A program made the translations under genes and the position numbers. From the NCBI GenBank assembly GCA_040756435.1, contig JBFLZD010000028.1, positions 1 to 46,590 of the forward strand: 46,590 nucleotides of DNA. The letters run 5' to 3'. Below are positions 19,642 through 38,556 of the stretch, in pieces. The stretch's first letter is position 1. Each line of letters opens with the position of its first letter. This DNA comes from Spirochaetota bacterium (lineage in GTDB: Bacteria > Spirochaetota > UBA4802 > UB4802). A model generated the notes under the pieces. It saw only the letters and a list, made by a program, of their open reading frames with translations, was not told the origin of the DNA and did no database searches.

Positions 19642-21798
19642 TTGAGATATATAATTATTTTATTTTGTTTTTTTACAATTTTGTATGCTTTGTTTGTAGT
19701 TCTGGTTAATGTTCTGAAGCGGTTTTCGTATGCAGTGAACAGGTGGTTTTCATTTATAGCGTTGCTTACAGCAGCAATGATTTCATGCCTGCTGATTCCT
19801 TTTTTTATTTCAACTATAGCAATAACAGAGTTAACACGCTGGTATTTTGCATTGATTATAATCATTAATCAGGCTTTCTTCCATTATACACAGATATTCC
19901 CACGCTGGGAGAAAAAGAGTCCTCTATTTATTATAATTATTTCAGCAATTCCAGGAGTGGTTACTTTTTTGCTTACGGCGGTAACCGATGGTATAATTCT
20001 TTCTGCTTCTTTTGATGGTCTCCATATTCAGTTTGAATATGGTCAGTTTATAGTGCTGTATCTGGTTGTTTTTGTTTTTTATATTATGGGAACGTTCCTC
20101 ACCCTGTATTATAAAGTACGACGCCTGGAGAATACCTCTTTCAGGTATCAGCTTTTTTATGTGTTTATGGGGAATCACGTTGGTGCACTCATAATACTCA
20201 TTTCTTTTATCATAATGCCCTATGTTTTCAAACGCTTTGAATATCACAGTTTAGGAATATCCTCTGCAGCTTTGCTATTATTGTATATTAATAACTATGC
20301 TATCTCTGATGAGCGATATCTTAACTTTAAAGAATTTTATCTTAAAATTGTGTATTATAGCGTTGTGCTGGTATTTACAGTAATTCCAACATACTGGATT
20401 CTTGTTACCAGTTACCGGTATTTTCTGGCAGGAGGCCAGATACCTGCAGTTGCTGTCGCCTTTTTAAATTTCGTATATTTAGTTTTCTTCACCAGGGTTA
20501 TACAGCCATATTTAGAAAAATTGATTAAAAGAGAATATGCTGAATTAGAAAAACGTTTTAATGAATTTATTCAGGCATTATCGCAGGTTGAAGAATTTGA
20601 AGGTGATCCCACATACTGGGATAGGTTCTTTACTGCCACAATGGATTCACTGGAATACCTTTTTAATGTAACATCTGCTTCATTTTTAATGTATAATGAA
20701 TTGGAAAAGGCATATATTTTGAGCCATGCTATAGGGCAGCAGCCCCAGGTAAAAAGAATATCTGTTGATGATTCACTGGTTCAATTATGCCAGATAGCAA
20801 AAACAACAATACATCAATCATTATTCTACACTGATGAAATATTTAAGCCGTATGATGATGTACTGGCATTGGTAAAAAACAATGCTATTGAAGTTATTCT
20901 CCCATGTTTTGACCAGTCGGGAAAACTTATAGGAATACTTTTTATTTGCCCTCATAAAAAAGGAAGGCCGTATACATTTAATGAAATTGAGTTTATGGAG
21001 TTGTACAGAGTAAAATTTAACAGTGCACTTGTTAATTCACTTCAGATTGAAGAGGTCAAGTCAAAACAGGTTGGCGAACATGATAATTTAGTTGTGAGTG
21101 CTATAAAAAATTCAATTATCCCCCGTCAGATGCCCTATATTGAGCACATCAGGATAAGCTCATTTTTTATGAACAATTCTAATTTAGGAGGGGAATTCTT
21201 CAATGCAAAGGTTTTACATAAAAATGCACTGGCCTTTTTAATAGCCGATTGTTCCTACAGTGGAGTGGATGCAGCAGTATTGGCATTGGAACTCTATGCT
21301 GCGTTTGAGTCTTTATCCCCCCTATATGACACTCCGGAAAAAATTATGCAGTTATTGAACTGGGTGGTATGTACATCCAAATTTACTGAAAGGTATGCCA
21401 CTTCATTTTGTTTTACATTTAACTCTGAAGCACTATCACTGAAATATATTAATGCAGCGTTTAATCCCTTGATTATATATGAAATTCAAAATGATAGTTT
21501 TATAGAGTTAGATACAAAAGGAATCCCCATTGGTATAGAGAAAGATTTTATCTATGAATCAAAAGAATATGTAATCAAAGGGCCATGTATTGGTTGTATT
21601 TACTCTAATGGCATTACGGGTGCTGTAAATCAAACAGGGCAACCATATTCTATTGGAAGAATTAAAGATCTCATAAGACTCCACAACAGTGAAAGCCCTG
21701 CTCTTATAATCAGGCGTATTTCTTCAGACATAGATACATATACAAGCAATACAGCTGTTAAAGAAGATATCAGTATTATTATATTTCGAATAGAATGA
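19642..21798 (+). CDS. Membrane protein with GAF-like and degenerate SpoIIE phosphatase domains
   Basis: The protein has 718 residues. The first 290 hold about eight to nine hydrophobic helices, similar to the 7TM-type sensor modules of bacterial signalling proteins. A short coiled linker (about 290-310) leads to a GAF-like domain (about 320-465). The C-terminal SpoIIE/PP2C fold (about 480-718) has altered metal sites: the expected GGDxxD is G516-G-E-F-F-N521, the DVxGHG loop is DCSYSG at 536-541, TDG is SNG with N656, and the final DD is E708-D709. It is therefore probably a non-catalytic phosphatase homologue that senses or binds rather than hydrolyses. The start is TTG with GGAAGG 7 bases upstream. 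Confidence 0.85.
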   Translation: MRYIIILFCFFTILYALFVVLVNVLKRFSYAVNRWFSFIALLTAAMISCLLIPFFISTIAITELTRWYFALIIIINQAFFHYTQIFPRWEKKSPLFIIIISAIPGVVTFLLTAVTDGIILSASFDGLHIQFEYGQFIVLYLVVFVFYIMGTFLTLYYKVRRLENTSFRYQLFYVFMGNHVGALIILISFIIMPYVFKRFEYHSLGISSAALLLLYINNYAISDERYLNFKEFYLKIVYYSVVLVFTVIPTYWILVTSYRYFLAGGQIPAVAVAFLNFVYLVFFTRVIQPYLEKLIKREYAELEKRFNEFIQALSQVEEFEGDPTYWDRFFTATMDSLEYLFNVTSASFLMYNELEKAYILSHAIGQQPQVKRISVDDSLVQLCQIAKTTIHQSLFYTDEIFKPYDDVLALVKNNAIEVILPCFDQSGKLIGILFICPHKKGRPYTFNEIEFMELYRVKFNSALVNSLQIEEVKSKQVGEHDNLVVSAIKNSIIPRQMPYIEHIRISSFFMNNSNLGGEFFNAKVLHKNALAFLIADCSYSGVDAAVLALELYAAFESLSPLYDTPEKIMQLLNWVVCTSKFTERYATSFCFTFNSEALSLKYINAAFNPLIIYEIQNDSFIELDTKGIPIGIEKDFIYESKEYVIKGPCIGCIYSNGITGAVNQTGQPYSIGRIKDLIRLHNSESPALIIRRISSDIDTYTSNTAVKEDISIIIFRIE

Positions 21799-21838
21799 TT
21801 ATTCCCAATATAATTTATCCAATTATAGTAGTGTCATC

Positions 21839-22945
21839 ATGATTAATATTAATTTTGAAGAATCAGCAAAAACTATTACATCTTTGTTACAGGAACAGAA
21901 AAATATAGCAATTATTATAAAAGGTTCTCCAGATCCAGATGCATTAGCTTCGTCATATTTTTTCTGGAAACTATGTACATTGTTACATGTTAAAGCCACT
22001 ATATATGGATTTATGCCTGCTTCTCTGCCATCTAATAAAGAATTTATATCTATTTTCAATATACCGTTTAACATTGTAGCGGATTTAAAAGAAATAAATC
22101 TTAGCAGATTTTCAGGGTATATTGTATGTGATTATCAGATAGCAGCTCTTGAAGATAATTTTGCTACTATTCCCTGTATAATCCATTTAGACCACCATTC
22201 ACCAGCGGAACATGATGTTCCTGCACGTTTTCGCCTATTAACTGATAAAGTATCTTCAACAAGCACACTCTGTGCATTGTTGATGCAGCATATATCATTT
22301 GTATCATTAGAAGATGTTCCCAGTCTGGCAACATCACTATATGTAGGCATTAAAACGGATTCTGATGATTTTAAACATGTGGGTGAATATGATACAATGG
22401 CACTGGAATATATTAAGCCATTTTGCAATATGACAATAATTGAACAGATTGAAAATACGCCTTTAACTCCGCATGCATTGAGCCTGTTACAGAAAGCAAT
22501 GAAAAACGCCATTGTTTATAAAGATTGGCTTATTGCTGGGGTTGGATTTGTGGAAGAAAGGTATCGTGATACTATCGCCATTATTGCGGATTATCTTTTG
22601 CAAAATAATCCTGTTGAGCTTGTGGTAGTATATGGGGCAGTGTATCATAATAATCACACTAAATTGGATATTGACGCATCATTCAGGACAAGAAGCGAAG
22701 ATTTTGATTTAAATGAGCTCATAAAAAATATTACTCCTGATGGCGGCGGACGCAAGTACAAGGGTGCATTTCAGGTTCATATTGATTATTTTGTACATTG
22801 CCCTGATCAGGATACGTTGTGGGAGATAATAGAAATAACTACAAATCAGATATTAAAAAATCAAAGAGATAGTAGTTTAAAAATTGTATTGCAGAGTAAA
22901 TTTAAAAACTTTAAAAAAATACTTAAACATTTATTTCGCTTATAA
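21839..22945 (+). CDS. DHH/DHHA1 phosphoesterase family protein
   Basis: This 368-residue protein has the two-domain fold of the NrnA/GdpP superfamily, which cleaves short oligonucleotides, pAp or cyclic dinucleotides using Mn2+. The N-terminal DHH domain shows motif I SPDPDALAS (20s-30s), VCDYQ as motif II, HLDHH as the signature motif and GIKTDSDDF as motif IV. The DHHA1 domain near the C-terminus has GGGRKYKGAFQV. In motif I the His that usually lies four residues before the first Asp is Lys, so the metal site is not fully canonical. There is no clear ribosome binding site. It is 40 bases downstream of the membrane SpoIIE-like gene and ends just before a pair of strong hairpins. Confidence 0.85.
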   Translation: MININFEESAKTITSLLQEQKNIAIIIKGSPDPDALASSYFFWKLCTLLHVKATIYGFMPASLPSNKEFISIFNIPFNIVADLKEINLSRFSGYIVCDYQIAALEDNFATIPCIIHLDHHSPAEHDVPARFRLLTDKVSSTSTLCALLMQHISFVSLEDVPSLATSLYVGIKTDSDDFKHVGEYDTMALEYIKPFCNMTIIEQIENTPLTPHALSLLQKAMKNAIVYKDWLIAGVGFVEERYRDTIAIIADYLLQNNPVELVVVYGAVYHNNHTKLDIDASFRTRSEDFDLNELIKNITPDGGGRKYKGAFQVHIDYFVHCPDQDTLWEIIEITTNQILKNQRDSSLKIVLQSKFKNFKKILKHLFRL

Positions 22946-23085: not shown

Positions 23086-26000
23086 TTAAAATAACAGGCT
23101 GAATTGGAAGCCAAGCTCATAAGATATAATCTCACGATTAACGTCATTTGTTTCCCTATTTCTATAGCGCTCCAGTATGCCACGTGCAATACATGAACCC
23201 TGAACATTTTTGTGGACATTTATTGTGAGGCTTGATGATATGCTGTACAGGTCGTATGGTTCAGGTGAAGTGTAGTAGGTATAATTATAGCGGTTCAGTG
23301 TCATGAGATATTCTAATCGAAATATTGGTAATGCTGTTAATGTGTACCAGGTACTGAAGAAATCATAAATAAACGGGACATCTGTTTCATAAATTGTAGA
23401 AAATGTGTATCCCTTGTCAATATTTGTAAATGGTGATTGTACCATCATATTGTAAAAATAGATATCATCTTTTGCCGATCGCTCATTATCATCAATCGGG
23501 ATAAATTCATGCCATTTCTGGGTACGGTAACTAATCCCAAATTTTGCAGCAATACTTGACCTGTCCCATTTAAATGTTGCTCCAATGCTGGGTGTGTACT
23601 CATCCTGCAGTATATTGGAAGTAATACGAAGGTATCTATTCCATTGATATTCTAGTAATGCAGTTGCGGAATGGTACGGAAGATCGGGCCTGTTTGGTCT
23701 GAAAAAACCAGAGGAAAATATTTTCATTAAATCACATGATAATGATGAAACAAGAGTATAGGTAACAACCTGCTGGGAGGCGGTATTAACACCGTTGCGG
23801 TCTGAAACTGAATGAATACTGCTGTTTAAAAATAAAACAAATGGCGATAGTTCCCAGTTGATACTGAATGAAGCATTATCTAACAGCCTGAAATAGTTAT
23901 TGTAATCTGAGAATGGAGTTCCATTAACTTCTGGCTGAGACGATACCGTATGGGTTACAAAATCACGTCCGTGAGCGTAATTTGATCTTCCTTTAAAAAA
24001 ATGCCATGGGGGATAGTGAATAATGTTATATATGGGGCCAGCACATAGATTCAAATAACGACTTACTCCATATTTTTCTTCATAAAAATTTATAGACTCA
24101 CCTTCATAGGGCACATTAATCTCATTCAGTGTGCTTGCACGAGTATAGTTGAATGAACAACTTTTTATACTGGGGAATAAAGTTTGGAGATTTATGGGTA
24201 CAGCAATTGTACTGGATAGAAATCCCTGTGTAGAACGGGTGCGATTGAATCCCAGAGTCATCCATGTATCATAGGATTGCAGGTCTTTGAATTGATTTTC
24301 AAAATATGAGATTTCGTATGTTATAGAAGGGTTTATAAGCTTATAACTTTTAAGGCCAAAGGAAAGTGAACTTTTTTTCAAACGCTCAATAAATCGTATA
24401 CTATCTCCATATATAAAAGGAATGTGATATCCTGAACTAATCTCCTGTGATAATGCTGGGTTTATGTCAGTTACCGTTCCTGAGTAGGTGATAAATTCTT
24501 CTGTTAGTAGTTGTATGTTGGGGGAAATAAAAAAATGAGGTAATTGATAATTAAAATTCATTGAACAGGATTCACGCTGTTTTTTTTGAGTGTTTGTTCC
24601 TGTTGCTACTGATTGGGTGTTTTCTTTGAATATATCTTCTTTAAAAGAAGTATCAAGGAGTAATCTGTATGAAAAATCTCCGCCCAATACATCATGTAAC
24701 GATTGCTGCACGCCAACTGTTGCCTGATGTGTTATTTTGCTGGTGTCATTATCAAATGTGTTTACATCCTGATAATATGCCTGCTTGTTGGTGAAGTTTT
24801 CATAATTATAGAGCAGGTTAAGCTGTGGAATTGTTGTATTGGGAGGTGAGAGGGTTGAGGCAAAATGGATTTGTTTTATACTGGTTATTCCTCTTCTGGA
24901 TGCGGTTACCTGCTCATTAAGACTATCAGTTTGCGATTCTTCCTGAATAAAATCAAGTGATGTGTGCCAGTATGGAAGCACCTGGCAGGTTACTGTTGCC
25001 TGATTATAGTCTTCAGAAATATCATTATATGGTTGACCTATCGTATAAAAATTATTCCCATGCTGTTTTTTTAAATATGATAGGGTAATATCCGAAAACA
25101 CCGGAGTCCCTGCTTGTGTGCGGGTAATCGGTTTGGTAATTTTTATGGTGCCTTCATACCAGTGAGCGGTATCTTCAAGTGTCATGGGGTCGCTGGCATA
25201 GATATCGTCAAGCCAGAATTGGCCACTAGTAGTGGTATTCTGCACTGAAACTGTGATAGCTATTATTCGTTTAAGATCAGGGTTACCTTCTTTTTTTATG
25301 AATTGAGCATTTGTATTGTTGCATTGTAATGACAAAACAATATCTTCCCAGGCTTGCATAAATTGTGGGTTGTATGAGTACTCTAAATAATCATTATCTG
25401 AAGAATGCAAACGGAATATAAGTGTATCACCTGATGTATAATTTCGTATATTAATCCAGCAATGGACATTGCGATAAAACCTGAGATCCATTGGTTTATA
25501 AAATTTTCTTTTTATAGTGGCTGATGTAATTGAAGTATACGTTACATTCAGGGCAGATTCCATAGTCTGGCTGAGTTCTTTTTTACTTTTATCACCATAC
25601 AGACTGGTGTAAATATCACTTTTACTGCGAGCAAATGACTCCTGCGCATATTCTGAATCATTAAGTGAATCAATAAGGGTAAGCTTCACTTTGTCGATAT
25701 CAGTGCCACTTGTGCCATCAATACTATCCACCTGCCAGTGCATGGTAACAAAGCGAATGGTGTCAATGAGGATGGTACCAGTTGCTGCTGATTTTTTTTG
25801 TAATATGAGTCTAATAGCATATATTTTTTTCAATATATCCTCAAATGCATCTGGCAATGCGGTATATAAAGCGGGGTTAGTTTTGTTTATATAAATACGA
25901 ACTCTTTGCCATGTAGTATTGGCACAATCCACGGTAATTGGGGTTATTAATCCGGGAACACGTATATTTTGTTCACCGGTATCAAGCATCCCATTATCAT

Positions 26001-28716
26001 TTAAATCCTCAGTATTGAGCACGCCATCGCCAATGGTGGTAGATGATACAGCAGGCCCAGAGCCCACAACTGTTGTAAATGGATTGTCAAACGTATATCC
26101 TGTATCTTCAGAAATATTTTTATTGGTATCATAATCTAAAAATCCGTTATGATTACTATCTTCAGTATCAAGAATCCCATCACCGTCACTGTCTTCATTT
26201 ATGGAACCTATATCAAGGTACATATCAACAGTACCAGTACCACCTGTACTACGATACCATATCTCAACATATTCTAAGTTGGAAAGATCAGTGGGTTTTT
26301 GGGATAGTGTACGGGTAACAATAGATATACATTCCCCCGATGAAAAATCAAAGTTTAAGCCTAAAGAACGCTGGGATTGCTCGCTCTGGAGCGACGGTGC
26401 AATGTGGCCAGTAGCAACATTATAAGGGCCAGGCTTTTTGGAGTATGGCACATTAATAGGGGTAAAGTCTAAACCATACAGTGTTTCAGGATTATTACTA
26501 TCGCGATAAAATTTATAATAGATGCGGGCACGTTCATTCTGCGATATACTAGGGGGTAAAGAGCCCAATACCCAGTCTTTTTCTGACATTGATACTGTTA
26601 GCCCAGAATAAATTGATTCAAAATCATCTATCAGTCCTTTGCCAAAGGTATTGATGCTGTGATAGCTTTTTGCGTACTCTGCATAGCCTTTGAATAGTAC
26701 CGGTACGGTAATAAGGGATTGCGTAATTTTTGAGGCAAATGCTGATATATCATGAGGGCTCACTTCAACGGAACTATCGGCCTCAATAACCGTAGTTTGT
26801 GTTGGTTCATTGCCTAACAGAGGAACAGTGGATGCCATGCCCTGCGTGGTATACAGAATAGTCCCACCAACATTAATATTTTTATTCAAAGCATAATCAG
26901 CTCGCATGCCACCAACGAATTGCTGGGCCTGTCCTTCAAAGGGGAGGTATTGGTAGCTTATTTCAATATCGGTTTCAGGAGTGATTACAGGATTCCCTGG
27001 ATTGGTGAACTGGAAAAAACCCGATGTGGGGTCAACACTGTACAGGCTTTCGGCAATCTGAATGCCATTAATCTTAACCCGTATGGTGTCAGGGATGATA
27101 TTGACATGTTTTAGCTGAAATCCCCGTGACTGACTGTATCCTGCAATACCAATCTTATACTGGGATACGGTATATGCCTGAGTTTGTGATTCAGTGTAGA
27201 TAATTTTTTGTGATTGAGCGGACAAAAGCTGTTTAAATGGTTCACGAAGCTTAAACGTAATTGCGCCAGTGTTATAATCAATAATGAAATTTCCTAATTT
27301 TTGTATGTCGGTTCTGGACATAGGAAAAAGATTGTTAAAAAAAGATATTTTAACGTCATCAGCACGAATGTTTTGTAGCCCTGTATTATATATTCCGCGA
27401 ATTTCATATATGTCTATGTTTAAAACACCATCGTTGTTGGTATCTTCACTTGGGTCAAGAGTGCCATTAAAATTAGCATCCTCGTGAATTGATGGACCAC
27501 ATTTAATAAACACACATATTTTACCGGGAAATTGCGGATGATTGGTAATTGCAGAAGGGTCGGAAGTCTGTGTGGTCCCACCATTTCGAGTATAAACTGC
27601 AAATATTTTTGCCTGGGGTTTAAAAGCTTTTAACAGGGCGATAGTTCCTGTGGAAAAGTTTATGGTATACTCAGAGCCCTGCTGTAATTTTCTGAAATAT
27701 CCCAAAATGATAGAAGGATTATCCCATCTGTGAAGTTCCAGTAATCCACTTTTATCCTGTGTGATAGCATCATCTGCATACAGTTCAAAACCGGAGCTAT
27801 CGATACCAACAGAATAGGGTGTGTAGGTTGATGGATTGACTGGTGCAGATGTCCATGTAATGGTTGTATACATGTTTGATGGGGGAGTATCCACATTGTC
27901 ATAGCGTTTGAATGGTTCCAGCTGATAATATGTTGCCTTTGTATATTGGAATTCCTGCAATGTAATGCTTGCACTGGAAAAGTTACCCTTAAAATGTTCT
28001 ATCTCACTGACACCCTTTGCCACTGAACCAAACGCTTTGACCTGTAAATTGCCCTTTTTAATGGTAAAATCTATACCCATGCCCTTTGATGTGGTGTCAT
28101 CATACACTGCATATTTTGATTTATTCACTTTTATGGTTATATCACCGGCATTAATCTCACGTAAAACTTCATCGTCTTCTACAGCTTTGTATTGCATTAT
28201 ATAGGTGTTGGTGCGCTGCTGACTATCGTGGTCAATGTATAGGGTAAGACGCTTACCGGCTTTGCCTTCGATATGAAGCTGCATGGTTTGTTCAGGTGTA
28301 AAACCGGATTGGATTAATGCAGATGTTGGTTTGTCTTCATCAAATCGTTTGTACTTATTGCTGGTAAAAAATGACTTTCCATATCGTGCGTTGAGATTCA
28401 TTGAACCATATGACAGAATGTCATAGGGCTCTTCTTCTATGAGTGGTTCGGCTCCGGGGACAGTAAATTTATACTGGGGCTCTATGATGTATTTTGTCCA
28501 GTCTCCCTGATTATAATCAAATGGCGATTGTGCATGGGGTTCTATTTCTGGCTGTGTAGAGGACGGGGGGTGTATTTTTTCCTCTGAAATTTTGTATGTA
28601 GTGATATAATCATTAATGCGTTGGTGAAACGGACGAGATAATTGCTGGGAGATAACTATAGCAGTAGCTGATGACAGCAATAAACCAATAACAATGATAT
28701 TGGATAATGATTTCAT
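23086..28716 (-). CDS. Giant SprA-like outer-membrane protein
   Basis: This is a 1,876-residue exported protein. It has an N-terminal signal segment (KSLSNIIVIGLLLSSATA), a proline-rich linker, and then a region at about 75-215 that resembles the start of SprA/Sov. SprA is the giant barrel that forms the type IX secretion translocon in Bacteroidota; the resembling text is of the kind GKAGKRLTLYIDHDSQ, EVLREINAGDITI. Calcium-binding-like Asp/Asn/Gly repeats (D.N.DG..D) occur near residues 412-430 and 840-920. Two carbohydrate-binding-like segments (YVEIWYRSTGG; near 1090-1150) follow, then a long series of amphipathic strands ending in aromatic FQFSLLF, a beta-barrel C-terminal signal. SprA is usually over 2,000 residues, so this is somewhat short. 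No other type IX gene is in the window. Homology is inferred by pattern only. Confidence 0.7.
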   Translation of the reverse strand: MKSLSNIIVIGLLLSSATAIVISQQLSRPFHQRINDYITTYKISEEKIHPPSSTQPEIEPHAQSPFDYNQGDWTKYIIEPQYKFTVPGAEPLIEEEPYDILSYGSMNLNARYGKSFFTSNKYKRFDEDKPTSALIQSGFTPEQTMQLHIEGKAGKRLTLYIDHDSQQRTNTYIMQYKAVEDDEVLREINAGDITIKVNKSKYAVYDDTTSKGMGIDFTIKKGNLQVKAFGSVAKGVSEIEHFKGNFSSASITLQEFQYTKATYYQLEPFKRYDNVDTPPSNMYTTITWTSAPVNPSTYTPYSVGIDSSGFELYADDAITQDKSGLLELHRWDNPSIILGYFRKLQQGSEYTINFSTGTIALLKAFKPQAKIFAVYTRNGGTTQTSDPSAITNHPQFPGKICVFIKCGPSIHEDANFNGTLDPSEDTNNDGVLNIDIYEIRGIYNTGLQNIRADDVKISFFNNLFPMSRTDIQKLGNFIIDYNTGAITFKLREPFKQLLSAQSQKIIYTESQTQAYTVSQYKIGIAGYSQSRGFQLKHVNIIPDTIRVKINGIQIAESLYSVDPTSGFFQFTNPGNPVITPETDIEISYQYLPFEGQAQQFVGGMRADYALNKNINVGGTILYTTQGMASTVPLLGNEPTQTTVIEADSSVEVSPHDISAFASKITQSLITVPVLFKGYAEYAKSYHSINTFGKGLIDDFESIYSGLTVSMSEKDWVLGSLPPSISQNERARIYYKFYRDSNNPETLYGLDFTPINVPYSKKPGPYNVATGHIAPSLQSEQSQRSLGLNFDFSSGECISIVTRTLSQKPTDLSNLEYVEIWYRSTGGTGTVDMYLDIGSINEDSDGDGILDTEDSNHNGFLDYDTNKNISEDTGYTFDNPFTTVVGSGPAVSSTTIGDGVLNTEDLNDNGMLDTGEQNIRVPGLITPITVDCANTTWQRVRIYINKTNPALYTALPDAFEDILKKIYAIRLILQKKSAATGTILIDTIRFVTMHWQVDSIDGTSGTDIDKVKLTLIDSLNDSEYAQESFARSKSDIYTSLYGDKSKKELSQTMESALNVTYTSITSATIKRKFYKPMDLRFYRNVHCWINIRNYTSGDTLIFRLHSSDNDYLEYSYNPQFMQAWEDIVLSLQCNNTNAQFIKKEGNPDLKRIIAITVSVQNTTTSGQFWLDDIYASDPMTLEDTAHWYEGTIKITKPITRTQAGTPVFSDITLSYLKKQHGNNFYTIGQPYNDISEDYNQATVTCQVLPYWHTSLDFIQEESQTDSLNEQVTASRRGITSIKQIHFASTLSPPNTTIPQLNLLYNYENFTNKQAYYQDVNTFDNDTSKITHQATVGVQQSLHDVLGGDFSYRLLLDTSFKEDIFKENTQSVATGTNTQKKQRESCSMNFNYQLPHFFISPNIQLLTEEFITYSGTVTDINPALSQEISSGYHIPFIYGDSIRFIERLKKSSLSFGLKSYKLINPSITYEISYFENQFKDLQSYDTWMTLGFNRTRSTQGFLSSTIAVPINLQTLFPSIKSCSFNYTRASTLNEINVPYEGESINFYEEKYGVSRYLNLCAGPIYNIIHYPPWHFFKGRSNYAHGRDFVTHTVSSQPEVNGTPFSDYNNYFRLLDNASFSINWELSPFVLFLNSSIHSVSDRNGVNTASQQVVTYTLVSSLSCDLMKIFSSGFFRPNRPDLPYHSATALLEYQWNRYLRITSNILQDEYTPSIGATFKWDRSSIAAKFGISYRTQKWHEFIPIDDNERSAKDDIYFYNMMVQSPFTNIDKGYTFSTIYETDVPFIYDFFSTWYTLTALPIFRLEYLMTLNRYNYTYYTSPEPYDLYSISSSLTINVHKNVQGSCIARGILERYRNRETNDVNREIISYELGFQFSLLF

Positions 28717-28759: not shown

Positions 28760-29752
28760 TTACCACATCTTGCTCATATATGGGTAAGGATTTATTGGCA
28801 CCCCGCCTAAACGTATTTCATAGTGACAGTGGCTCCCCGTTGCAGAACCGGTTTGGCCAACATAGGCAACAACCTGTCCTTTCTGTACATTCTGCCCCGG
28901 GAATACTATTACTTTGGAACAGTGCCCATAGATCGTTTCATAGCCGTATTTATGTTTAATTCTGACCATAAATCCATAACCACCACCCCAGGAAGAGGAT
29001 ATGACTACTCCCGGAGCAGTGGCACGTATTTCAGTACCCTGAGGTGCTGCGATATCAATGCCGGAATGAAAATCCCTTCCAAAACCAAATGGGGAACGGC
29101 GCCATCCAAAAAGGGAAGTGATGTGCCCGGGATTAGGAATTATTGACGGGGTGTCATAAATAACTTTATTACGTACATCAATAAAATTCTTTATTGTTTT
29201 TACAGTATTTGTTGTACAGATCAGATCCTTTTGCAATACTCGCAATGTTTTAACTTCAGAAGGCAAAATTGCCGAATATTGACGCATTGAGGGGTCTTCC
29301 ACTGAAATTATGGATGATTCCCAGATTGACTGAGTATTATTGTTATTGGTAGCCAATTCATATAGATCTTCAATATCAGGTTTTATGGAATCTAATTCTT
29401 TATCAAGCTCATTTGTCAGCTGCTCAAACCGTATAAGCTGTGATCGTATATCTTTGTAGTTTGATAGTAAACGTTCTTCTTCACGTTTTACTGCAGCATT
29501 TTTGATTATTGCGTAAGCTGAAGTAACGATAACTATCATCATTAAGGAACTGAAAAAAAGTATGGTGAAACGAGATATCTGAAAATTAAATATTTTCTGT
29601 TCATTGTGGGGAATGAACATTATGGTCATTTTTTCGTGGCCATGTTCAAGGAATTTATCCCACTTTTTAGACCATTGTTTCTTCTTCAGATAATATTTTT
29701 CTTTGAGCTGTCGCTCAATATCGCTCTTTAGTATTTTTAGCTTTACTTTCAT
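28760..29752 (-). CDS. Membrane-anchored M23 metallopeptidase (LytM-like)
   Basis: The protein is about 330 residues with one transmembrane helix near residues 50-75, preceded by a basic cytoplasmic segment containing MTIMFIPHNEQKIFNFQIS, a style familiar from spirochaete M23 proteins. A periplasmic coiled coil (about 80-125) leads to a C-terminal M23 domain. The zinc and catalytic residues are all present: HSGIDIA (His and Asp), YGHCS and SHCHYEIR. It should cut peptidoglycan cross-bridges or, with a partner, regulate an amidase. The start at 29752 follows AAGGAATC; another in-frame ATG 21 bases upstream (29773) lacks a better site. It precedes the SprA-like gene by 43 bases on the same strand. 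Confidence 0.9.
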   Translation of the reverse strand: MKVKLKILKSDIERQLKEKYYLKKKQWSKKWDKFLEHGHEKMTIMFIPHNEQKIFNFQISRFTILFFSSLMMIVIVTSAYAIIKNAAVKREEERLLSNYKDIRSQLIRFEQLTNELDKELDSIKPDIEDLYELATNNNNTQSIWESSIISVEDPSMRQYSAILPSEVKTLRVLQKDLICTTNTVKTIKNFIDVRNKVIYDTPSIIPNPGHITSLFGWRRSPFGFGRDFHSGIDIAAPQGTEIRATAPGVVISSSWGGGYGFMVRIKHKYGYETIYGHCSKVIVFPGQNVQKGQVVAYVGQTGSATGSHCHYEIRLGGVPINPYPYMSKMW

Positions 29753-29929
29753 GATTCCTTTAATAAACAGCACTTTTTATTAAGTGATTCAGGGCAATGG
29801 TTAAAAATATACAATAAATTGCAATAAAAAATAAAATATGCTATCATTGTATTATATCGTATGATAAGCCTGATTAATGCAAGTTTTTTTTATACACTGT
29901 ATAAAGGATAACAGGATTTAGGACAATAT

Positions 29930-30362: not shown

Positions 30363-30908
30363 ATGACATCTGATGATAAAAAAAATAAGCTTCGTGCAAT
30401 CTTATTTTATACGATGATTGCAGCATATTCCTACCTTGTATTGACTATAGGTTCTGGCAATGATATTCTTTTCTGGTCGTATGAAGAGTTTATTTTTGGC
30501 ACTGTAATCAGTATTATACTGGCATCTGTAACCTACTGGCTTATACCAATAAAGATTACCGGTAAATTGTTAAATCCATTCTTTTATCTTGGGTTAATTC
30601 TATACTTTGCAGGGCCTTTTTTCGTAGCGCTGCTCATAGCTAATGTTGAAGTGATGTATCGGATTATCACCGGGAAAATTAAGCCTGCAATTGTAAAAGT
30701 TGACCCTGAAATTCAGGATGAAATGGGAGTATATTTACTGGCAAATTCGATTACCCTATCCCCTGGAACATTAACCTTAGGTTTTGATCCTGAAAAAAGA
30801 AAATTATTCATTCATTGTTTGTACTGGACTAAAAGCAAAGAATATTCAGCTGTGCCAAAGGATGTTGCAGGCTTTTTACACTTTTTTTTAAAAAAGCTTT
30901 TTAGGTAA
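30363..30908 (+). CDS. mbhA: Mrp-type antiporter subunit E-like protein (MbhA)
   Basis: This is a 181-residue MnhE/MrpE homologue and the first gene of a 14-subunit-type membrane-bound hydrogenase operon. It has three to four hydrophobic helices at the N-terminus (to about residue 100) and a cytoplasmic domain with the family's conserved ANSITLSPGTLTLG segment, near 125-140. In Mrp antiporters this small subunit packs beside the F and G subunits and is needed for Na+/H+ exchange. mbhB starts 6 bases after its stop. The Mbh letter names follow the archaeal Pyrococcus operon, which has the same order. Confidence 0.9.
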   Translation: MTSDDKKNKLRAILFYTMIAAYSYLVLTIGSGNDILFWSYEEFIFGTVISIILASVTYWLIPIKITGKLLNPFFYLGLILYFAGPFFVALLIANVEVMYRIITGKIKPAIVKVDPEIQDEMGVYLLANSITLSPGTLTLGFDPEKRKLFIHCLYWTKSKEYSAVPKDVAGFLHFFLKKLFR

Positions 30909-30914
30909 GCAAGT

Positions 30915-31190
30915 ATGCACATGTATGATTTCAATTCAATATTCCTGTTATCTGCGCTGTTATGCATAGTGTATGTATGTATCATTGTGATACGGATTGC
31001 ATTCAGCCATAATGTGCCCGAACGAATAGTGGCCCTGGATACCATTAACACATTAATAATTGTTATCATGATTGTACTGGGTGCAGCTCAGAAAAAAGCC
31101 TTATATATTGATATTGGAATTGTGTATGGGATTATCTCGTTTATTGGGACATTATATATTGCCCGCTACCTTATAGATGAGAGGAAATAA
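30915..31190 (+). CDS. mbhB: Mrp-type antiporter subunit F-like protein (MbhB)
   Basis: This 91-residue protein is almost entirely three transmembrane helices and matches MnhF/MrpF by size, composition and the short loop FSHNVPERIVALDTINT, where the conserved Asp of the family lies. It is a membrane subunit of the antiporter part of the complex. It ends directly before the GTG start of mbhC, which shows tight translational coupling. Confidence 0.88.
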   Translation: MHMYDFNSIFLLSALLCIVYVCIIVIRIAFSHNVPERIVALDTINTLIIVIMIVLGAAQKKALYIDIGIVYGIISFIGTLYIARYLIDERK

Positions 31191-31598
31191 GTGGATACTT
31201 TTATTGTGTCTTGCCTTGTTATTGGTTTGGTTGTCAATGGTATGAGTATTATTGGGCTCATGCGGTTTCCTGATATATATACCCGTTTGCATGCAGCCAC
31301 AAAAACAACCACGTTTGGCAGTATCTTTGTTGTTTTGGCGATAGTTATTAAAAATATAGTCTACTATGACCAGGCAAGTCTCACAATTGCCATTCATAGT
31401 ATTGTTGCATTACTGGTTATTATCTTTACCAATCCAATCAGTGCTCACGCAATAGCACGAGCATCATTGCTATCAGGCATTAAACCGTTTGGTGTTGTTA
31501 TAAATGAATTTGATTATAAATCGCAGATTAAGTCTGCAGATGAGCTGGAACTTGAAAAGGTAAGTGAAGGAATTCCTGATGAGGATGGTGTACTATGA
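31191..31598 (+). CDS. mbhC: Mrp-type antiporter subunit G-like protein (MbhC)
   Basis: This is a 135-residue MnhG/MrpG homologue with three transmembrane helices. The family signature IIGLMRFPDIYTRLHAATKTTTFG follows the first helix and FTNPISAHAIARA lies after the third. The start is GTG at 31191, with GAGGAA just upstream inside the end of mbhB. About 40 charged residues extend beyond the usual end of the family. Its stop overlaps the mbhD start (ATGATG). Confidence 0.9.
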   Translation: MDTFIVSCLVIGLVVNGMSIIGLMRFPDIYTRLHAATKTTTFGSIFVVLAIVIKNIVYYDQASLTIAIHSIVALLVIIFTNPISAHAIARASLLSGIKPFGVVINEFDYKSQIKSADELELEKVSEGIPDEDGVL

Positions 31599-31837
31599 TG
31601 TATTACTTTTTTCTGGTTATTTCAATTGCCCTGGTAATCACAGCACTGCTCTCTATCTATTTTAGAGATCTTCTGGCAGCAATCGTAAGCTATTCGGTTT
31701 TTTCATTGGTTTTGACAGTACTGTATTTTCTTTTAGATGCACCTGATGTTGCTATTGCAGAAGCTGGTATTGGAGCGGCACTCACTACCTGTATTTTTGT
31801 TATTGCCATCAGAATGACACGGAGAAGGGAAGAATGA
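31595..31837 (+). CDS. mbhD: MbhD-like subunit (DUF4040 type)
   Basis: This 80-residue membrane protein resembles MbhD and the matching segment near the C-terminal end of MrpA. It has two to three helices with the signature DLLAAIVSYSVFSLVLTVLYFLLDAPDVAIAEA, where the acidic residues of the last motif lie in a proposed ion path. It overlaps both its neighbours by four bases (ATGA type), so synthesis of these small subunits is tightly coupled. Confidence 0.88.
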   Translation: MMYYFFLVISIALVITALLSIYFRDLLAAIVSYSVFSLVLTVLYFLLDAPDVAIAEAGIGAALTTCIFVIAIRMTRRREE

Positions 31838-32667
31838 GGTTATTCAGCGTTGTAGCAATTGTTATACTATTTGGGTTTCTTTTTGTTGGAATATTACATC
31901 TACATCCTGTTGGAGAAGCTTTAGGCAATTCGGAAGTGTTACAGGGAAGGCCAGAACAGGGTATTGATATTAATGGTGTTAGCACCATGGATGATTACTT
32001 TTTGCGCAATGGTCAGATTGAAACAAAGTCAAATAACATTGTAGCAAGTGTGGTATTTGATTATCGTGGATTTGACACATTAGGGGAAGCTACCGTTTTG
32101 TTTATTGTTGTAAGCAGTATTTCAATGCTTTTCTTTACATTTTTGAAAAGTAAAAGTATTGTTTCAGCGGGTGTACCTCCTGCAGGTCAATTTCCAAAAA
32201 TTGAGTCAAGAGTCATTACATTTGGATCTTTTATCATGTATATCATGATATTAAGCTTTGGGGTTTATCTGGTGGTTCATGGTCATATCTCACCGGGAGG
32301 AGGTTTCCAGGGGGGCTCTGTTATGGCCTCGGCAACAGCACTTTTACTCATCAGCTTTTTAATCACCCGCCATATGCAACGGACTCGTAAAATTTTCTCT
32401 TTCTTTGAATCTTTGGGGTTAACCATTTTTATTGGATTGGGATTTGCGGGAATTACAATATCGTTTTTATATAATTTTCTTGTTCACACCAGTACTGGAT
32501 TTGGCAGGATGATTGCTTTTGGTCCAAATCAGGGTTATTTAATATCAGCGGGGATATTACCGTTGTTATCACTGGCTGTAGGTATTGAAGTATTTTTTGG
32601 GTTAAGCCTTATCGTTGTAACATTATTTCATGTATCAGGGGTAAAAGATACTAATTCATTACGGTAA
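31834..32667 (+). CDS. Fused MbhE-MbhF subunit (MrpB-like)
   Basis: This 277-residue protein appears to join two subunits that are separate in the archaeal operon. Residues 1 to about 115 look like MbhE: one N-terminal helix, an external loop and IVASVVFDYRGFDTLGEATVLF. Residues of about 125-270 look like MbhF/MnhB, with the family signature HGHISPGGGFQGGSVMASATAL and four helices. In Mrp, the corresponding pieces are the C-terminal tail of MrpA plus MrpB. The reading frame is uninterrupted through the junction (about residues 105-130). It starts by overlapping mbhD (ATGA). Confidence 0.85.
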   Translation: MRLFSVVAIVILFGFLFVGILHLHPVGEALGNSEVLQGRPEQGIDINGVSTMDDYFLRNGQIETKSNNIVASVVFDYRGFDTLGEATVLFIVVSSISMLFFTFLKSKSIVSAGVPPAGQFPKIESRVITFGSFIMYIMILSFGVYLVVHGHISPGGGFQGGSVMASATALLLISFLITRHMQRTRKIFSFFESLGLTIFIGLGFAGITISFLYNFLVHTSTGFGRMIAFGPNQGYLISAGILPLLSLAVGIEVFFGLSLIVVTLFHVSGVKDTNSLR

Positions 32668-32672
32668 TCATT

Positions 32673-33032
32673 ATGTCAGCAATTTTGCTTTATGTAACAT
32701 TTATTCTTTTATTGACCATAGGGATAATCGCACTGTTGTTTAAACGCAACCTTATTAAAATTGTACTGGCATTTAACATCCTGGATTCAGGTATAAACCT
32801 GTTTTTTATTTCTTTAGGATACCGTGAAAATGCCATGGCTCCAATATTCACACTGGCGCCGTTTGATTCTGTTATAACCATGGTATTGCCCACACCTCAG
32901 GCGCTTATATTAACTAACATAGTTATTGGATTTGCTACCACTGCGCTCATGTTGGGAGTTTCTGTGCTTACCTACAGAAATAATAATACTCTGGATACAC
33001 GAAAATTGCGTGGAGTGGAAGAGTATGATTAA
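32673..33032 (+). CDS. mbhG: Mrp antiporter subunit C / NuoK-like (MbhG)
   Basis: This 119-residue protein with three transmembrane helices matches MnhC/MrpC and NuoK. The family motif IVLAFNILDSGINLFFIS is in helix two, and the conserved loop PQALILTNIVIGFATTAL leads into helix three. It forms part of the ion path between the antiporter-like and MrpB-like parts. Its last eight bases overlap the start of mbhH. Confidence 0.9.
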   Translation: MSAILLYVTFILLLTIGIIALLFKRNLIKIVLAFNILDSGINLFFISLGYRENAMAPIFTLAPFDSVITMVLPTPQALILTNIVIGFATTALMLGVSVLTYRNNNTLDTRKLRGVEEYD

Positions 33033-34551
33033 ACATGTCCCTATCTTATTGGTAGCTATCCCGCTTCTTGCTGCTTTCATGATACCAATGATTGGCATGG
33101 TCAATCGTACTGCCCGTACTGTTGTTGGGGCGATAGCTCTGGTAATGATACTGGCTGCATCATATTATATTGCTGGTGATGTTTTAGTCCATGGCCGAAT
33201 TTTATATTATATGGTAGGTTCCTCCAATCCAGAAATAGTAACTGAACATGGATTGACATTCCCAATACGGATAGGATTAAAGATAGATTCATTTTCACTT
33301 TTTTTTATTATAATGACTACAACTCTTGTGTTTATTTTTTATCTGTTTTCCACTCAGTATATTGAAGAAAATGAAAGAAAAAATTATTTTACCGTATTAT
33401 TTATATCAATGGTAGCAGGGATGATGGGGCTACTTGTTGCAAATGACCTGTTTACCTTTTTTGTGTTTCTGGAAATCCTTTCAATTTCCTCAGCAGCCCT
33501 GGTGGCATTCCGGACAGAACGAAAACACCCGCCCTATGCCGGGTATAAATATATGTTTATTAGCGCTGTGGCAACCAGTTTCTTTTTATTAGGGATTGCC
33601 TTCCTGTATGCACAGTATGGATCGTTCAACATTGACTATCTCAAAGAAGCTGTACGGGGAACATTGCTTGATAAAATTGCTATTGTCCTGCTTATAATAC
33701 CGCTGGCAATGAAATCAGGTGTTGTTCCCATGCACATGTGGATACCGGATACCTATTCAGAAGCTCCAGCACCAATCAGCGCAATGGTAAAATTAGGAAG
33801 TTTAATTTGCCTGTATGGTTTATTCCGTATATCATTTTCATTTGGATTGAGCCATGCACATGTCAGCTATCCACTGGGCGTATTGTTTATTGTTTTTGGC
33901 ATACTGTCAATGTTTATAGGTGTGACTCAGGCTCTGGTACAGAAGGATGTAAAACGCCTGATGGCCTTCCATGCGGTCTCTCAGGTGGGGTACATGCTTT
34001 TAGGTATGGGTGTTGGATTAACAGTAGTGAGAGCAGGTGACGCTTCCTTTGCTCTTTTTGGAAAAGTTGCAATGATTGGTGGATTACTCCATGTTGTTAA
34101 CAACGCATTGTATAAGGGATTGCTGTTTTTAACATCAGGTGTTTTGGTAAGGCATTTCAAAACGCGTAATCTGGATGCTATGCATGGATTGGCGCATTAT
34201 GACGTATTTACAACAGTGGTATTTATGATAGCAGCCCTGGCTATATCAGGGATTCCGCCATTTAATGGTTTTGTGTCAAAAATTATTATCTATGAATCGG
34301 TATTCCAGTATAATCCGGTATTGACGCTCATTGCAATATTTGTTTCAATTTTAACACTGGCTTCATTTATGAAAGTATTTTATAGTGCATTCTTAGGTAT
34401 GCCTGCAAACAAAAGGCCAATGGAACAGCCGGTACTGATCAAGTGCAGTATGCTTGTCCTGGCTGTTTTTATAGTAGTTATAGGTATATATCCACAGGGA
34501 ATACTGAAAGTATTAATTGAACCAGCAGTAAATGCATTGGTTAATTTTTAA
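33025..34551 (+). CDS. mbhH: Mrp antiporter subunit D / NuoL-M-N-like (MbhH)
   Basis: This 508-residue protein with about 14 helices is the main antiporter-like subunit, related to MrpD and NuoL/M/N. It would move H+ or Na+ when the hydrogenase turns over. The key charged residues of the family are visible: Glu in FFVFLEILS (helix 5), Lys in LAMKSGVVPMHMW (helix 7), Lys in the AMVKLGSL helix 8, and Lys in NNALYKGLLFL (helix 12), plus the conserved QKDVKRLMAFHAVSQVGYM. The ATG at 33025 follows GTGGAAGAG and overlaps the mbhG stop; a longer in-frame extension to 32926 would run inside mbhG and is rejected. Confidence 0.93.
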   Translation: MIKHVPILLVAIPLLAAFMIPMIGMVNRTARTVVGAIALVMILAASYYIAGDVLVHGRILYYMVGSSNPEIVTEHGLTFPIRIGLKIDSFSLFFIIMTTTLVFIFYLFSTQYIEENERKNYFTVLFISMVAGMMGLLVANDLFTFFVFLEILSISSAALVAFRTERKHPPYAGYKYMFISAVATSFFLLGIAFLYAQYGSFNIDYLKEAVRGTLLDKIAIVLLIIPLAMKSGVVPMHMWIPDTYSEAPAPISAMVKLGSLICLYGLFRISFSFGLSHAHVSYPLGVLFIVFGILSMFIGVTQALVQKDVKRLMAFHAVSQVGYMLLGMGVGLTVVRAGDASFALFGKVAMIGGLLHVVNNALYKGLLFLTSGVLVRHFKTRNLDAMHGLAHYDVFTTVVFMIAALAISGIPPFNGFVSKIIIYESVFQYNPVLTLIAIFVSILTLASFMKVFYSAFLGMPANKRPMEQPVLIKCSMLVLAVFIVVIGIYPQGILKVLIEPAVNALVNF

Positions 34552-34561
34552 GGATACAGTG

Positions 34562-34897
34562 ATGAATATAGTTCAAGTTGAATATCTTCATTGGGCGCCA
34601 TTGTTCTGGTTAGGAATTTTTTTTGGATTAGTTGTTGTGGTGATTATTATTGGCAAACTGTTTTTTAGGAATGATTATAATACAGTTGGTCAGCAAAGCC
34701 TTCCATTCTATTCGGGGACAAGCAATTCCCTGCTGCAACTGATCACCGCAAGCAGTTTATACTGGGGATTTAAGCATACGTTAGATGCCTATTTTTTAAT
34801 CATAAAGAGATTATTCATAAGTGATGTTGAAGATTTTATTCAATGGTTTATCATCATTGTTGCAGGCATGCTTCTTATACTGACTGGGGTACTATAG
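34562..34897 (+). CDS. mbhI: MbhI-like membrane subunit
   Basis: This 111-residue protein has two hydrophobic helices (about 12-32 and 90-110). Between them is a cytosolic segment with LPFYSGTSNSLLQLITASSLYWGFKH that fits MbhI, which anchors the hydrogenase peripheral arm to the antiporter. The start at 34562 is preferred to an upstream in-frame ATG at 34532 that would overlap mbhH; the spacer AAGGATACAGTG before 34562 is a reasonable ribosome binding site. The stop TAG shares its G with the GTG start of mbhJ. Confidence 0.82.
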   Translation: MNIVQVEYLHWAPLFWLGIFFGLVVVVIIIGKLFFRNDYNTVGQQSLPFYSGTSNSLLQLITASSLYWGFKHTLDAYFLIIKRLFISDVEDFIQWFIIIVAGMLLILTGVL

Positions 34898-35328
34898 TGA
34901 AAAATGTAAATTACCGGCATTTGAAGCGTTCATTGTGGGCTTACCATATAAATACAGGATCCTGCAATGCATGCGATATTGAAATATTGGCTACCCTCAT
35001 GCCACGGTATGACGCGGAGAGGTTTGGTATAAAGTTAGTTGGCAGCCCCCGGCATGCTGATGTGCTGCTTGTTACAGGAACCGTTACCGAAAAGATTAAA
35101 GACAATATCCTTCAGGTGTACGAACAGGTTCCCGAACCCAAGCTGGTTATTGTTATTGGAGGATGTGGCTCTACTAAAGGAGTATTCCAGGAATCCTATG
35201 CAATGGCAGGCCCGGTTGATGCAATAATACCTGTTGATGTGTATATACCAGGGTGCCCTCCAAGGCCTGAAGCTATCATTTATGGTATAGCAAAAGCATG
35301 GGAAAAACTGGAAAAATTGCAAAAATGA
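34897..35328 (+). CDS. mbhJ: Group 4 [NiFe] hydrogenase small subunit (MbhJ, NuoB-like)
   Basis: This 143-residue electron-transfer subunit carries only the proximal [4Fe-4S] cluster, as in other group 4 hydrogenases. The four cysteine ligands are visible: C23 and C26 in GSCNACDIE, C90 in IGGCGS and C120 in YIPGCPPRPE. There is no Tat signal peptide, which fits a cytoplasm-facing enzyme. The GTG start at 34897 is chosen because it overlaps the mbhI stop and gives the normal family length. An in-frame ATG 54 bases upstream lies inside mbhI and is unlikely. Confidence 0.93.
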   Translation: MKNVNYRHLKRSLWAYHINTGSCNACDIEILATLMPRYDAERFGIKLVGSPRHADVLLVTGTVTEKIKDNILQVYEQVPEPKLVIVIGGCGSTKGVFQESYAMAGPVDAIIPVDVYIPGCPPRPEAIIYGIAKAWEKLEKLQK

Positions 35329-35346
35329 TGTTATGGTATATATGCA

Positions 35347-35826
35347 ATGAAAACTGAACCTATAGTAACGGTATTACAGAATAAATTAGGAAGCCATATA
35401 CAGGCATCCCGTGAAAAGATTACCAATTATGGTAATGGAATTAACCGTATAACACTCTGGATCAGTATTGACAGGGAGTCTTTTCATTCGGCAATAGCAA
35501 TCCTGAAAACCATGGGAAGGTTGCATATATCAACCCCAATGCCCTATAAAGAGTATGAAGACCGTATTGAGCTTATATATCCGTTTGCGTTGAAAGAAAA
35601 AGATACTAAGTTTTCTGAAATCATGGTTATTATCTCGGTGGATATACCCAAAGACGATTTAAAGATAAGGACAATTACTGATATTGTTCCAGGAGCCCTT
35701 TTTATGGAGCGGGAAACCATGGAAATGATAGGTGTAGAAATTGAAGATATTCCTGACCCAAGAAGGCTTTTTACGGGCAACTATCTTCCTGATGGTGTTT
35801 ATCCGTTGAGGAACCAAAAAAAGTAA
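35347..35826 (+). CDS. mbhK: MbhK subunit (NuoC-like)
   Basis: This 159-residue cytoplasmic protein is related to NuoC, the 30-kDa subunit of complex I. It has the family segment DIVPGALFMERETMEMIGVEIEDIPDPRRLF near the C-terminus (ERE..D..G), which packs against the large subunit. The N-terminal part is weakly conserved, as usual. It has no cofactor motifs. It follows mbhJ by 18 bases and precedes mbhL by 12. Confidence 0.9.
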   Translation: MKTEPIVTVLQNKLGSHIQASREKITNYGNGINRITLWISIDRESFHSAIAILKTMGRLHISTPMPYKEYEDRIELIYPFALKEKDTKFSEIMVIISVDIPKDDLKIRTITDIVPGALFMERETMEMIGVEIEDIPDPRRLFTGNYLPDGVYPLRNQKK

Positions 35827-35838
35827 GGAACTAGTTAA

Positions 35839-37077
35839 ATGAAATCAGATATAACGTATCCATTAAATATTGGCCCCGTTCATCCAGCATTCAAGGAGCC
35901 CATTAAGTTCACGTTCAGGATTGAAGGGGAAAAGGTTGTTGGGGCTGATATTGATTTTGGGTATACACACAGGGCAATAGAGAGGATTGCCCAGGAAAGA
36001 AATTTCATACAGATAATCTATCTTCTTGAAAGGGTGTGTGGAATATGTTCGTTTTCACATCCCATGGCATATTGTCTTGCCATTGAAGATGTTGCAGGAA
36101 TAGAAGTGCCGCCTCGTGCGCGGTATATACGGACTATTGTTGGTGAACTGGAACGCCTGCACTCACATTTATTGTGGACTGGTGTTGCAGCTCATGAAAT
36201 TGGATTTGATACACTTTTTATGTACACATGGAATATCAGGGAGAAAGTCCTTGATTGTTTAGAAGAGCTTACCGGAAACCGCATTAATTATGCCATGCTT
36301 ACAATAGGTGGTGTGCGACGTGATATAACACCTGACAATGCACAAACTATTCATCAAATGCTTGAATACTATGAAGAGTTGTATAACAGAACTTCGGAAA
36401 TATTGCTTGATGATTTAACACTGAGAGCCAGGACCGAAGGAGTAGGAGTCCTGACTACAGAACAGGCTGAGCGATTATGCGCAGTGGGACCAACGGCCAG
36501 AGGTTCAGGATTAATGAAGGATGTTCGGGTTGATTATCCTGTGAATGCGTATTATGAGATACCATGGTTGAAGCCCATATCTCCACGGGATATAGGGAAG
36601 GAACCAATTGGTGATGTGTATGACAGGATGGCTGTGCGTGTGCTGGAGATACAGCAAGCAATAAAGATAATACAGTTCTGTATGGAAAACCTTCCCCAAG
36701 GGGACATTAACACCGGCAGTGGTGCCGTTAAGATGATTAATACACTGAAGAAGTTAGAAGGGGAGGGGATAGGACGGTATGAAGCTCCTCGTGGTGAGGT
36801 GTGCCACTATGTTATACTGGATAATCAGGAACATCCGGTTCAGATAAAAGTAAAGGCGCCAACATATTCCAATGGGTTTGCCTGGGCGCCAATGCTTACC
36901 AATATTGAAATAGCTGATATCCCAATAGTCATTGCTTCAATTGATCCATGTGTGGCATGTGCTGATAGGATGACGTATGTGCAAACTGATGGAAGTAGCA
37001 CAACCATATCCTGGGAAGAATTGCATGCAAAAAGTATACAGAAATATAAAGGGGCACGCAAACGATGTATGAAGTGA
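35839..37077 (+). CDS. mbhL: Group 4 [NiFe] hydrogenase large subunit (MbhL, NuoD-like)
   Basis: This is the catalytic subunit of H2 evolution or oxidation, 412 residues. Both CxxC pairs that hold the NiFe(CN)2CO centre are intact: C67-G-I-C70 in ERVCGICSFSHP and C371-V-A-C374 in SIDPCVACADR. This separates it from NuoD of complex I and from Mbs/Mrp-like sulfur reductases, where one or more of these Cys are lost. A 35-residue tail follows R377; in some group 4 enzymes such a tail is removed after nickel insertion and in others it stays, and no protease gene is in the window. AAGGA lies before the ATG. HypA, encoded at 13.9 kb, should serve its maturation. Confidence 0.95.
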   Translation: MKSDITYPLNIGPVHPAFKEPIKFTFRIEGEKVVGADIDFGYTHRAIERIAQERNFIQIIYLLERVCGICSFSHPMAYCLAIEDVAGIEVPPRARYIRTIVGELERLHSHLLWTGVAAHEIGFDTLFMYTWNIREKVLDCLEELTGNRINYAMLTIGGVRRDITPDNAQTIHQMLEYYEELYNRTSEILLDDLTLRARTEGVGVLTTEQAERLCAVGPTARGSGLMKDVRVDYPVNAYYEIPWLKPISPRDIGKEPIGDVYDRMAVRVLEIQQAIKIIQFCMENLPQGDINTGSGAVKMINTLKKLEGEGIGRYEAPRGEVCHYVILDNQEHPVQIKVKAPTYSNGFAWAPMLTNIEIADIPIVIASIDPCVACADRMTYVQTDGSSTTISWEELHAKSIQKYKGARKRCMK

Positions 37078-38078: not shown

Positions 38079-38088
38079 AAGGTGAGCC

Positions 38089-38556
38089 ATGTTAGGAATG
38101 GTATATAAAGTGGTGGAGCAATTGTTTGCAAAAAAATCCACAAATTATTTCCCTTCAAAATATATACTGGAAGATACAGCAACTACTCTCAATAAAGGTG
38201 CAATACATCCACCTATTGCGGTGAAAGAAGGTTTCAGAGGCAGATTAGAGTATAATGTTGAGACTTGTACCGGTTGTGGATTATGCAGCAAGGTATGCCC
38301 TGCCAATGCTATTGAATTATATCCTGCTCTCATTAATGATAAAAAAACAAAACGAATTGTAATATATTTATCACGGTGCACCTACTGTCAGGAGTGTGTT
38401 ACTATTTGTCCCAAAAATTCAATACAGATTACTTCACATTTTTGCATGGCTGATTACAATAAATATAATGCTTCTCTGGTTGTTGGTTTTGAACACAGAC
38501 AGAAATTTGAAATAAAAGAAGAAGGATCCACGGATGTTCAAAAAGAAGGAGATTGA
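38089..38556 (+). CDS. mbhN: Ferredoxin-like subunit MbhN (NuoI-like)
   Basis: This 155-residue iron-sulfur subunit passes electrons, probably from soluble ferredoxin, to the small subunit. It carries two [4Fe-4S] motifs: CTGCGLCSKVCPANA near residues 62-76 and CTYCQECVTICPKNS near 101-115. No NADH-binding partner (NuoE/F type) is encoded nearby, so ferredoxin is the likely donor or acceptor. Its last 23 bases overlap the MoaD-like gene in another frame. Confidence 0.93.
   Translation: MLGMVYKVVEQLFAKKSTNYFPSKYILEDTATTLNKGAIHPPIAVKEGFRGRLEYNVETCTGCGLCSKVCPANAIELYPALINDKKTKRIVIYLSRCTYCQECVTICPKNSIQITSHFCMADYNKYNASLVVGFEHRQKFEIKEEGSTDVQKEGD

Follow-up and report, generated by a model that had tools for sequence, protein, structure and literature searches.

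A SprA-superfamily giant outer-membrane barrel encoded in a spirochaete genome without a recognisable type IX motor

SprA is the translocon of the type IX secretion system (T9SS), which recent reviews place only in Bacteroidota or in the FCB superphylum (PMC11205867; PMC4793230) and which has also been suggested for the Fibrobacter phylum (PMC11285876). In Flavobacterium johnsoniae, substrates bind to PorV loops inside the SprA pore and exit sideways together with PorV, and when the motor is blocked the loaded substrate is trapped on the translocon, from which the authors deduced that energy is required for release and not for loading (PMC10994853). Searches of open-licence literature gave no account of SprA from Spirochaetota or Elusimicrobiota.

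The gene described here lies on the minus strand at 23086..28716 of the window, by which we mean the whole 46,590-nucleotide stretch of DNA that was analysed, and encodes a SprA-family giant outer-membrane β-barrel protein of 1,876 residues from an ATG start, with exactly the limits given in a first-pass annotation. The host genome, a MAG of an uncultured member of Spirochaetota (3.61 Mb, 126 contigs, 99.65% complete), carries it once. Residues 1-24 (28645..28716, minus strand) form a hydrophobic, signal-peptide-like N-terminus (MKSLSNIIVIGLLLSSATAIVISQQ), and the N-termini of the orthologues are likewise hydrophobic. They are followed by the SprA core, residues 62-1195 (25132..28533, minus strand), which aligns in one stretch to residues 126-1541 of F. 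johnsoniae SprA and contains the conserved motif NTFGKGLIDDFES (residues 689-701; 26614..26652, minus strand), aligned with ‘..IYVDDFEGSQS’ of SprA. Calcium-type Asp/Asn/Gly repeats are found within the core as EDANFNGTLDPSEDTNNDG at residues 412-430 (27427..27483, minus strand) and, in a region of strong cross-phylum conservation, as DSDGDGILDTEDSNHNGFLD ... EDLNDNGMLD at residues 842-913 (25978..26193, minus strand), where the repeats themselves occupy residues 842-861 and 903-912; many of the repeat residues are invariant among orthologues. The C-terminal barrel half, residues 1196-1876 (23089..25131, minus strand), is predicted to consist of long antiparallel strands and closes with ...YELGFQFSLLF, an outer-membrane-barrel pattern whose last residue is Phe. 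The signal peptide, the repeats and the C-terminal barrel signal that the annotation had read from the sequence are all present. Between species of the genus, dN/dS of the gene is 0.06-0.09 in both halves, and the protein is therefore under strong purifying selection.

The likeness to SprA, at first ascribed to the N-terminal region, is real but not restricted to that region, as the match spans the whole protein. NCBIfam model TIGR04189 (SprA/Sov) recognises the ORF at E 3.7e-31 with 107 bits, short of the equivalog cut-off of 200 bits, and is matched by 44/44 aligned homologues from many phyla. When 44 homologues spanning many phyla were built into a profile and compared with the PDB, F. johnsoniae SprA (6h3i_A) was returned at E 6.4e-125 over a single stretch of 1,060 positions (SprA 126-1541), with nothing else at E <= 0.01, whereas the SprA chain was absent from the matches of a profile of 13 sequences from this order only, which was too narrow to find SprA until other phyla were added. 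AlphaFold was run on two separate parts, residues 62-1195 (mean pLDDT 80, pTM 0.49) and 1040-1876 (pLDDT 81, pTM 0.61), and four SprA structures were the best PDB matches to each of the two models, at E 1e-39 to 5e-28 for the former (next 1e-6, more than 20 orders of magnitude behind) and E 1e-12 to 8e-9 for the latter (next 3e-4). Splitting the protein into two separately folded halves keeps the corresponding TM-scores modest (0.31-0.39 on the query); SprA is characterised by a single 36-strand barrel with a lateral opening, and the spirochaete protein has many long predicted strands, in halves modelled apart. The 1,876-residue ORF is a remote but certain homologue of SprA. Separately, Pfam matches of the ORF to DUF2460, PilY2 and ATP-synt_8 were weak and judged to be due to chance.

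Nearly all genomes in the order encode orthologues, mainly of full length and 33-92% identical. Across the phylum, members of the SprA family were recovered from 89/296 sampled Spirochaetota genomes and 65/134 genera; the weakest matches are short or marginal, and single-contig spirochaete genomes are among the carriers. A scan of genome contigs revealed homologues, mostly ORFs of 1,700-2,500 residues, in records labelled Elusimicrobia, Firestonebacteria, Cloacimonadota, Latescibacterota, Fermentibacteria/Aegiribacteria, Zixibacteria, Gemmatimonadota, Krumholzibacteriota, Eisenbacteria, KSB1, Kryptoniota, Ignavibacterium, Fibrobacter and Bacteroidetes. The expectation of a SprA homologue outside the phyla usually named is supported. 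In diverged spirochaetes (L100, L194, L195, L200-L202) the SprA-like ORF is shorter, at about 1,600-1,800 residues, and the next one or two genes encode related outer-membrane proteins, with a FecR domain in the second; these proteins are possible carriers.

In a tree of 85 sequences and 1,063 columns, 41/41 Spirochaetota sequences lie together on the same side of a branch that has 100% SH-aLRT support, and Elusimicrobiota, Cloacimonadota and a Bacteroidota/Ignavibacteria/Kryptoniota set form one group each. The tree was built by a quick search under LG+G4 with no mixture model, was rooted at its midpoint, has several long branches and includes no canonical SprA from Flavobacteriia or Bacteroidia. 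Since this tree follows the phyla, the gene looks ancient and vertically inherited and not like an import from Bacteroidota. The spirochaete identity of the host, which the annotation had left conditional, is likewise upheld by the orthologues across the order and by the position of all spirochaete SprA sequences together in the tree. Public bins of the order do seem to hold some foreign contigs, for example ones encoding long CTD proteins, which speaks for an assembly artefact or a recent horizontal gain, with Bacteroidota DNA inside a spirochaete bin. Such an origin is extremely improbable: the gene order M23-sprA-DHH-SpoIIE is the same in many independent genomes, the spirochaete sequences stay together in a phylum-structured tree, and the single-contig genomes carry family members of their own. 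Synteny and tree together rule out bin contamination or horizontal gain as the source of the gene.

The neighbouring M23 peptidase gene on the same strand, to which the annotation had also drawn attention, lies 43 bp upstream of the sprA-like gene (28760..29773, minus strand) and encodes a membrane-anchored metallopeptidase, in which an N-terminal membrane segment and a coiled coil accompany intact HSGID/HCH zinc motifs. The two genes probably form an operon. The pair is kept in 16/17 order genomes examined, with the M23 gene about 20-190 bp upstream of sprA on the same strand, and in another spirochaete family (L191, L192, L199) related M23 genes are located 3-4.6 kb upstream. Convergent to sprA are genes for a DHH phosphoesterase and a SpoIIE-type phosphatase (window 19642-22945, plus strand), conserved next to it in many order genomes. 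Elsewhere in the window, an operon at 30363-38556 (plus strand) encodes a membrane-bound group-4 [NiFe] hydrogenase-like complex, whose large subunit retains CGIC and CVAC motifs, together with Mrp/Mnh antiporter subunits, and an Eco57I/TaqI-type DNA methyltransferase with a specificity domain is encoded at 12030-13784 (minus strand), amid otherwise ordinary genes. A public record named ‘Bacteroidetes bacterium ADurb.Bin145’ (L039) shows the M23-sprA gene order and the SprA type of this spirochaete order and is for that reason probably a mislabelled spirochaete bin; there, exbB-exbD-exbD-tonB-like genes lie upstream of mlaD-radA-M23-sprA.

The T9SS components searched for were SprA, GldL, GldM, PorV and the CTD, and the type IX export route proposed alongside the SprA-like barrel found no support in the form stated. 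Using a Bacteroidota-built profile, GldM was found in 0/45 order genomes and in 0/52 SprA-bearing genomes of many phyla, and the same search matched 10/41 Bacteroidota genomes as a positive control, 9 of them above cut-off. GldL, whose profile was run without a positive control, was above cut-off in 0/45 order genomes (one weak match) and in 0/44 genomes of a second search (three weak matches), leaving none at the family level. Both Bacteroidota-built profiles were silent in the Fibrobacter genomes searched as well, and divergent motors may thus escape them; our claim accordingly stops at ‘no recognisable motor’. A set of CTD-tagged cargo was not found either, with 0-3 CTD matches per order genome, mostly to one conserved secreted protein of ~120 residues that has little beyond its CTD/FlgD-Ig domain. 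Its gene lies directly 5' of that of a PorV-like barrel, in a housekeeping cluster between tlyA-like and folP-like genes; at L133 9503-10888 (G000:C31), the pair comprises a CTD-only secreted protein of 119 residues and a PorV-like barrel of 338 residues, conserved in the order. Longer CTD-ended proteins are few and mostly sit on foreign-looking contigs of about 3-9 kb, and those in G004, G033 and G039, on small contigs of this kind, were discounted as probable contamination. What the search did recover are PorV-family (NF033709) proteins, which exceed the curated threshold in 30/45 order genomes and which Pfam places in the generic family UPF0164.

These PorV-family proteins and the conserved CTD/FlgD-Ig protein encoded beside a PorV-like barrel would fit a type IX system that is complete but whose motor, ring and cargo signals have diverged too far for Bacteroidota profiles. 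The same may be said of an 874-residue protein (L136 1734-4358; G000:C100) that combines a PorV-like barrel with CHU_C, FlgD-Ig and a C-terminal OmpA domain, in that order, and whose PorV-type match recurs in ORFs of 853-969 residues across the order. We nevertheless consider such a system unlikely, given that GldM is silent in 45 plus 52 genomes while its control works, that GldL is above cut-off in 0/45, that a family of long CTD-tagged proteins was not found and the few long CTD ORFs look like contamination, and that the PorV match is also one to UPF0164. Across the 296 genomes, SprA and the CTD-neighbour barrel occur together only in part, in a pattern confounded by kinship, and we do not count it as proof. 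Of the possibilities raised at the outset, that of a barrel repurposed outside the usual phyla suits these results better, with one correction, namely that the tree indicates an old, vertically inherited gene and not a borrowed one.

LptD, the LPS translocon, likewise forms a large, laterally opening barrel, and in several phyla the surroundings of sprA bring to mind an envelope lipid or LPS pathway, in which the barrel would be the outer-membrane component alongside Lpt or Mla proteins and would not be a protein exporter. Genes lptF and/or lptG adjoin sprA in divergent orientation at no fewer than 19 loci, drawn from Elusimicrobiota, Latescibacterota, Fermentibacteria/Aegiribacteria, Krumholzibacteriota and Gemmatimonadota (Pfam 250-305 bits in the four tested). 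One Cloacimonadota locus reads sprA-mlaD-lipoprotein-mlaE-mlaF, and in several order genomes mlaD, usually followed by radA, precedes M23-sprA, at a distance of two or three genes upstream from sprA. These neighbours hint at a coupling of sprA to envelope biogenesis, which by itself does not prove lipid transport: common descent or shared control can also keep a divergent pair together, and adjacency was counted without a background rate. Furthermore, sprA adjoins no lipid-transport gene within the window, and the known SprA transports proteins. An LptD model matched 0/45 order genomes, but it was also silent in a Bacteroides control genome and its silence is therefore not used as evidence. 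The ORF itself has no Pfam match to LptD. Taken with the neighbours on one side and these observations on the other, a lipid or LPS route seems to us distinctly unlikely.

We favour, with somewhat more than even confidence, a vertically inherited SprA-superfamily outer-membrane conduit that acts in a SprA-like manner without a recognisable GldLM motor. In such a conduit, periplasmic clients, probably Sec-exported proteins, would pass from the periplasm into the very wide barrel and exit through a lateral opening to the cell surface, perhaps being passed to a smaller carrier barrel, for which the conserved PorV-like barrels of the order are possible candidates. As loading in F. johnsoniae appears to need no motor, a SprA pore lacking GldLM could still load its clients and would need some other means of release; release would thus be unpowered or driven by another device in place of a recognisable GldLM proton motor. 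The co-encoded M23 peptidase would likely open peptidoglycan locally, for barrel assembly or for client passage, and the conduit as a whole may serve a small set of clients. What counts against this conduit reading is the score of 107 versus 200 bits on TIGR04189, the modelling of the protein as two separate halves, the Bacteroidota origin of motor profiles that may miss divergent motors, and the lptFG and mla neighbours in other phyla, which point equally to lipid and to protein.

As a single gene, the ORF is a variant of the known SprA, and the surprise lies in the breadth of the family, its apparent vertical descent and the lack of a detectable motor. With SprA-family members in about half the spirochaete genera sampled and GldM undetected in the genomes tested, the translocon appears separated from its motor, making the spirochaete SprA a natural system for asking what an unaided SprA pore does and how the T9SS arose. 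We find it about evenly balanced whether SprA is far older than the T9SS, in which case an ancestral giant translocon would have been present early on the line leading to Spirochaetota, Elusimicrobiota and the FCB phyla, with another or no energy source, and Bacteroidota would later have added GldLM and CTD cargo.

Compared with the described systems, the C-terminal half stands well apart from LptD, whose folds score much worse than SprA when this half is compared with known structures (E 4e-3 vs. 1e-12). The same genomes do encode barrels of the PorV/PorQ family (NF033709), although the match goes to the broad FadL-like family UPF0164, here with a C-terminal TPR. Relative to F. johnsoniae SprA, the spirochaete protein is ~500 residues shorter and under the equivalog cut-off, its gene is accompanied by a co-encoded M23 peptidase, and GldM was not found in the genome. 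We place the ORF in the SprA superfamily and do not class it as a T9SS SprA, because the equivalog score, GldM and cargo were each tested and none supported that assignment. The calcium-type repeats are conserved in the spirochaete protein and look degenerate in F. johnsoniae SprA, as far as a partial alignment goes. Shared with the F. johnsoniae translocon (6h3i, 8gl8) are the profile match, the fold of both halves and the IDDFE-type motif, as well as the signal peptide, the giant size and the C-terminal barrel.
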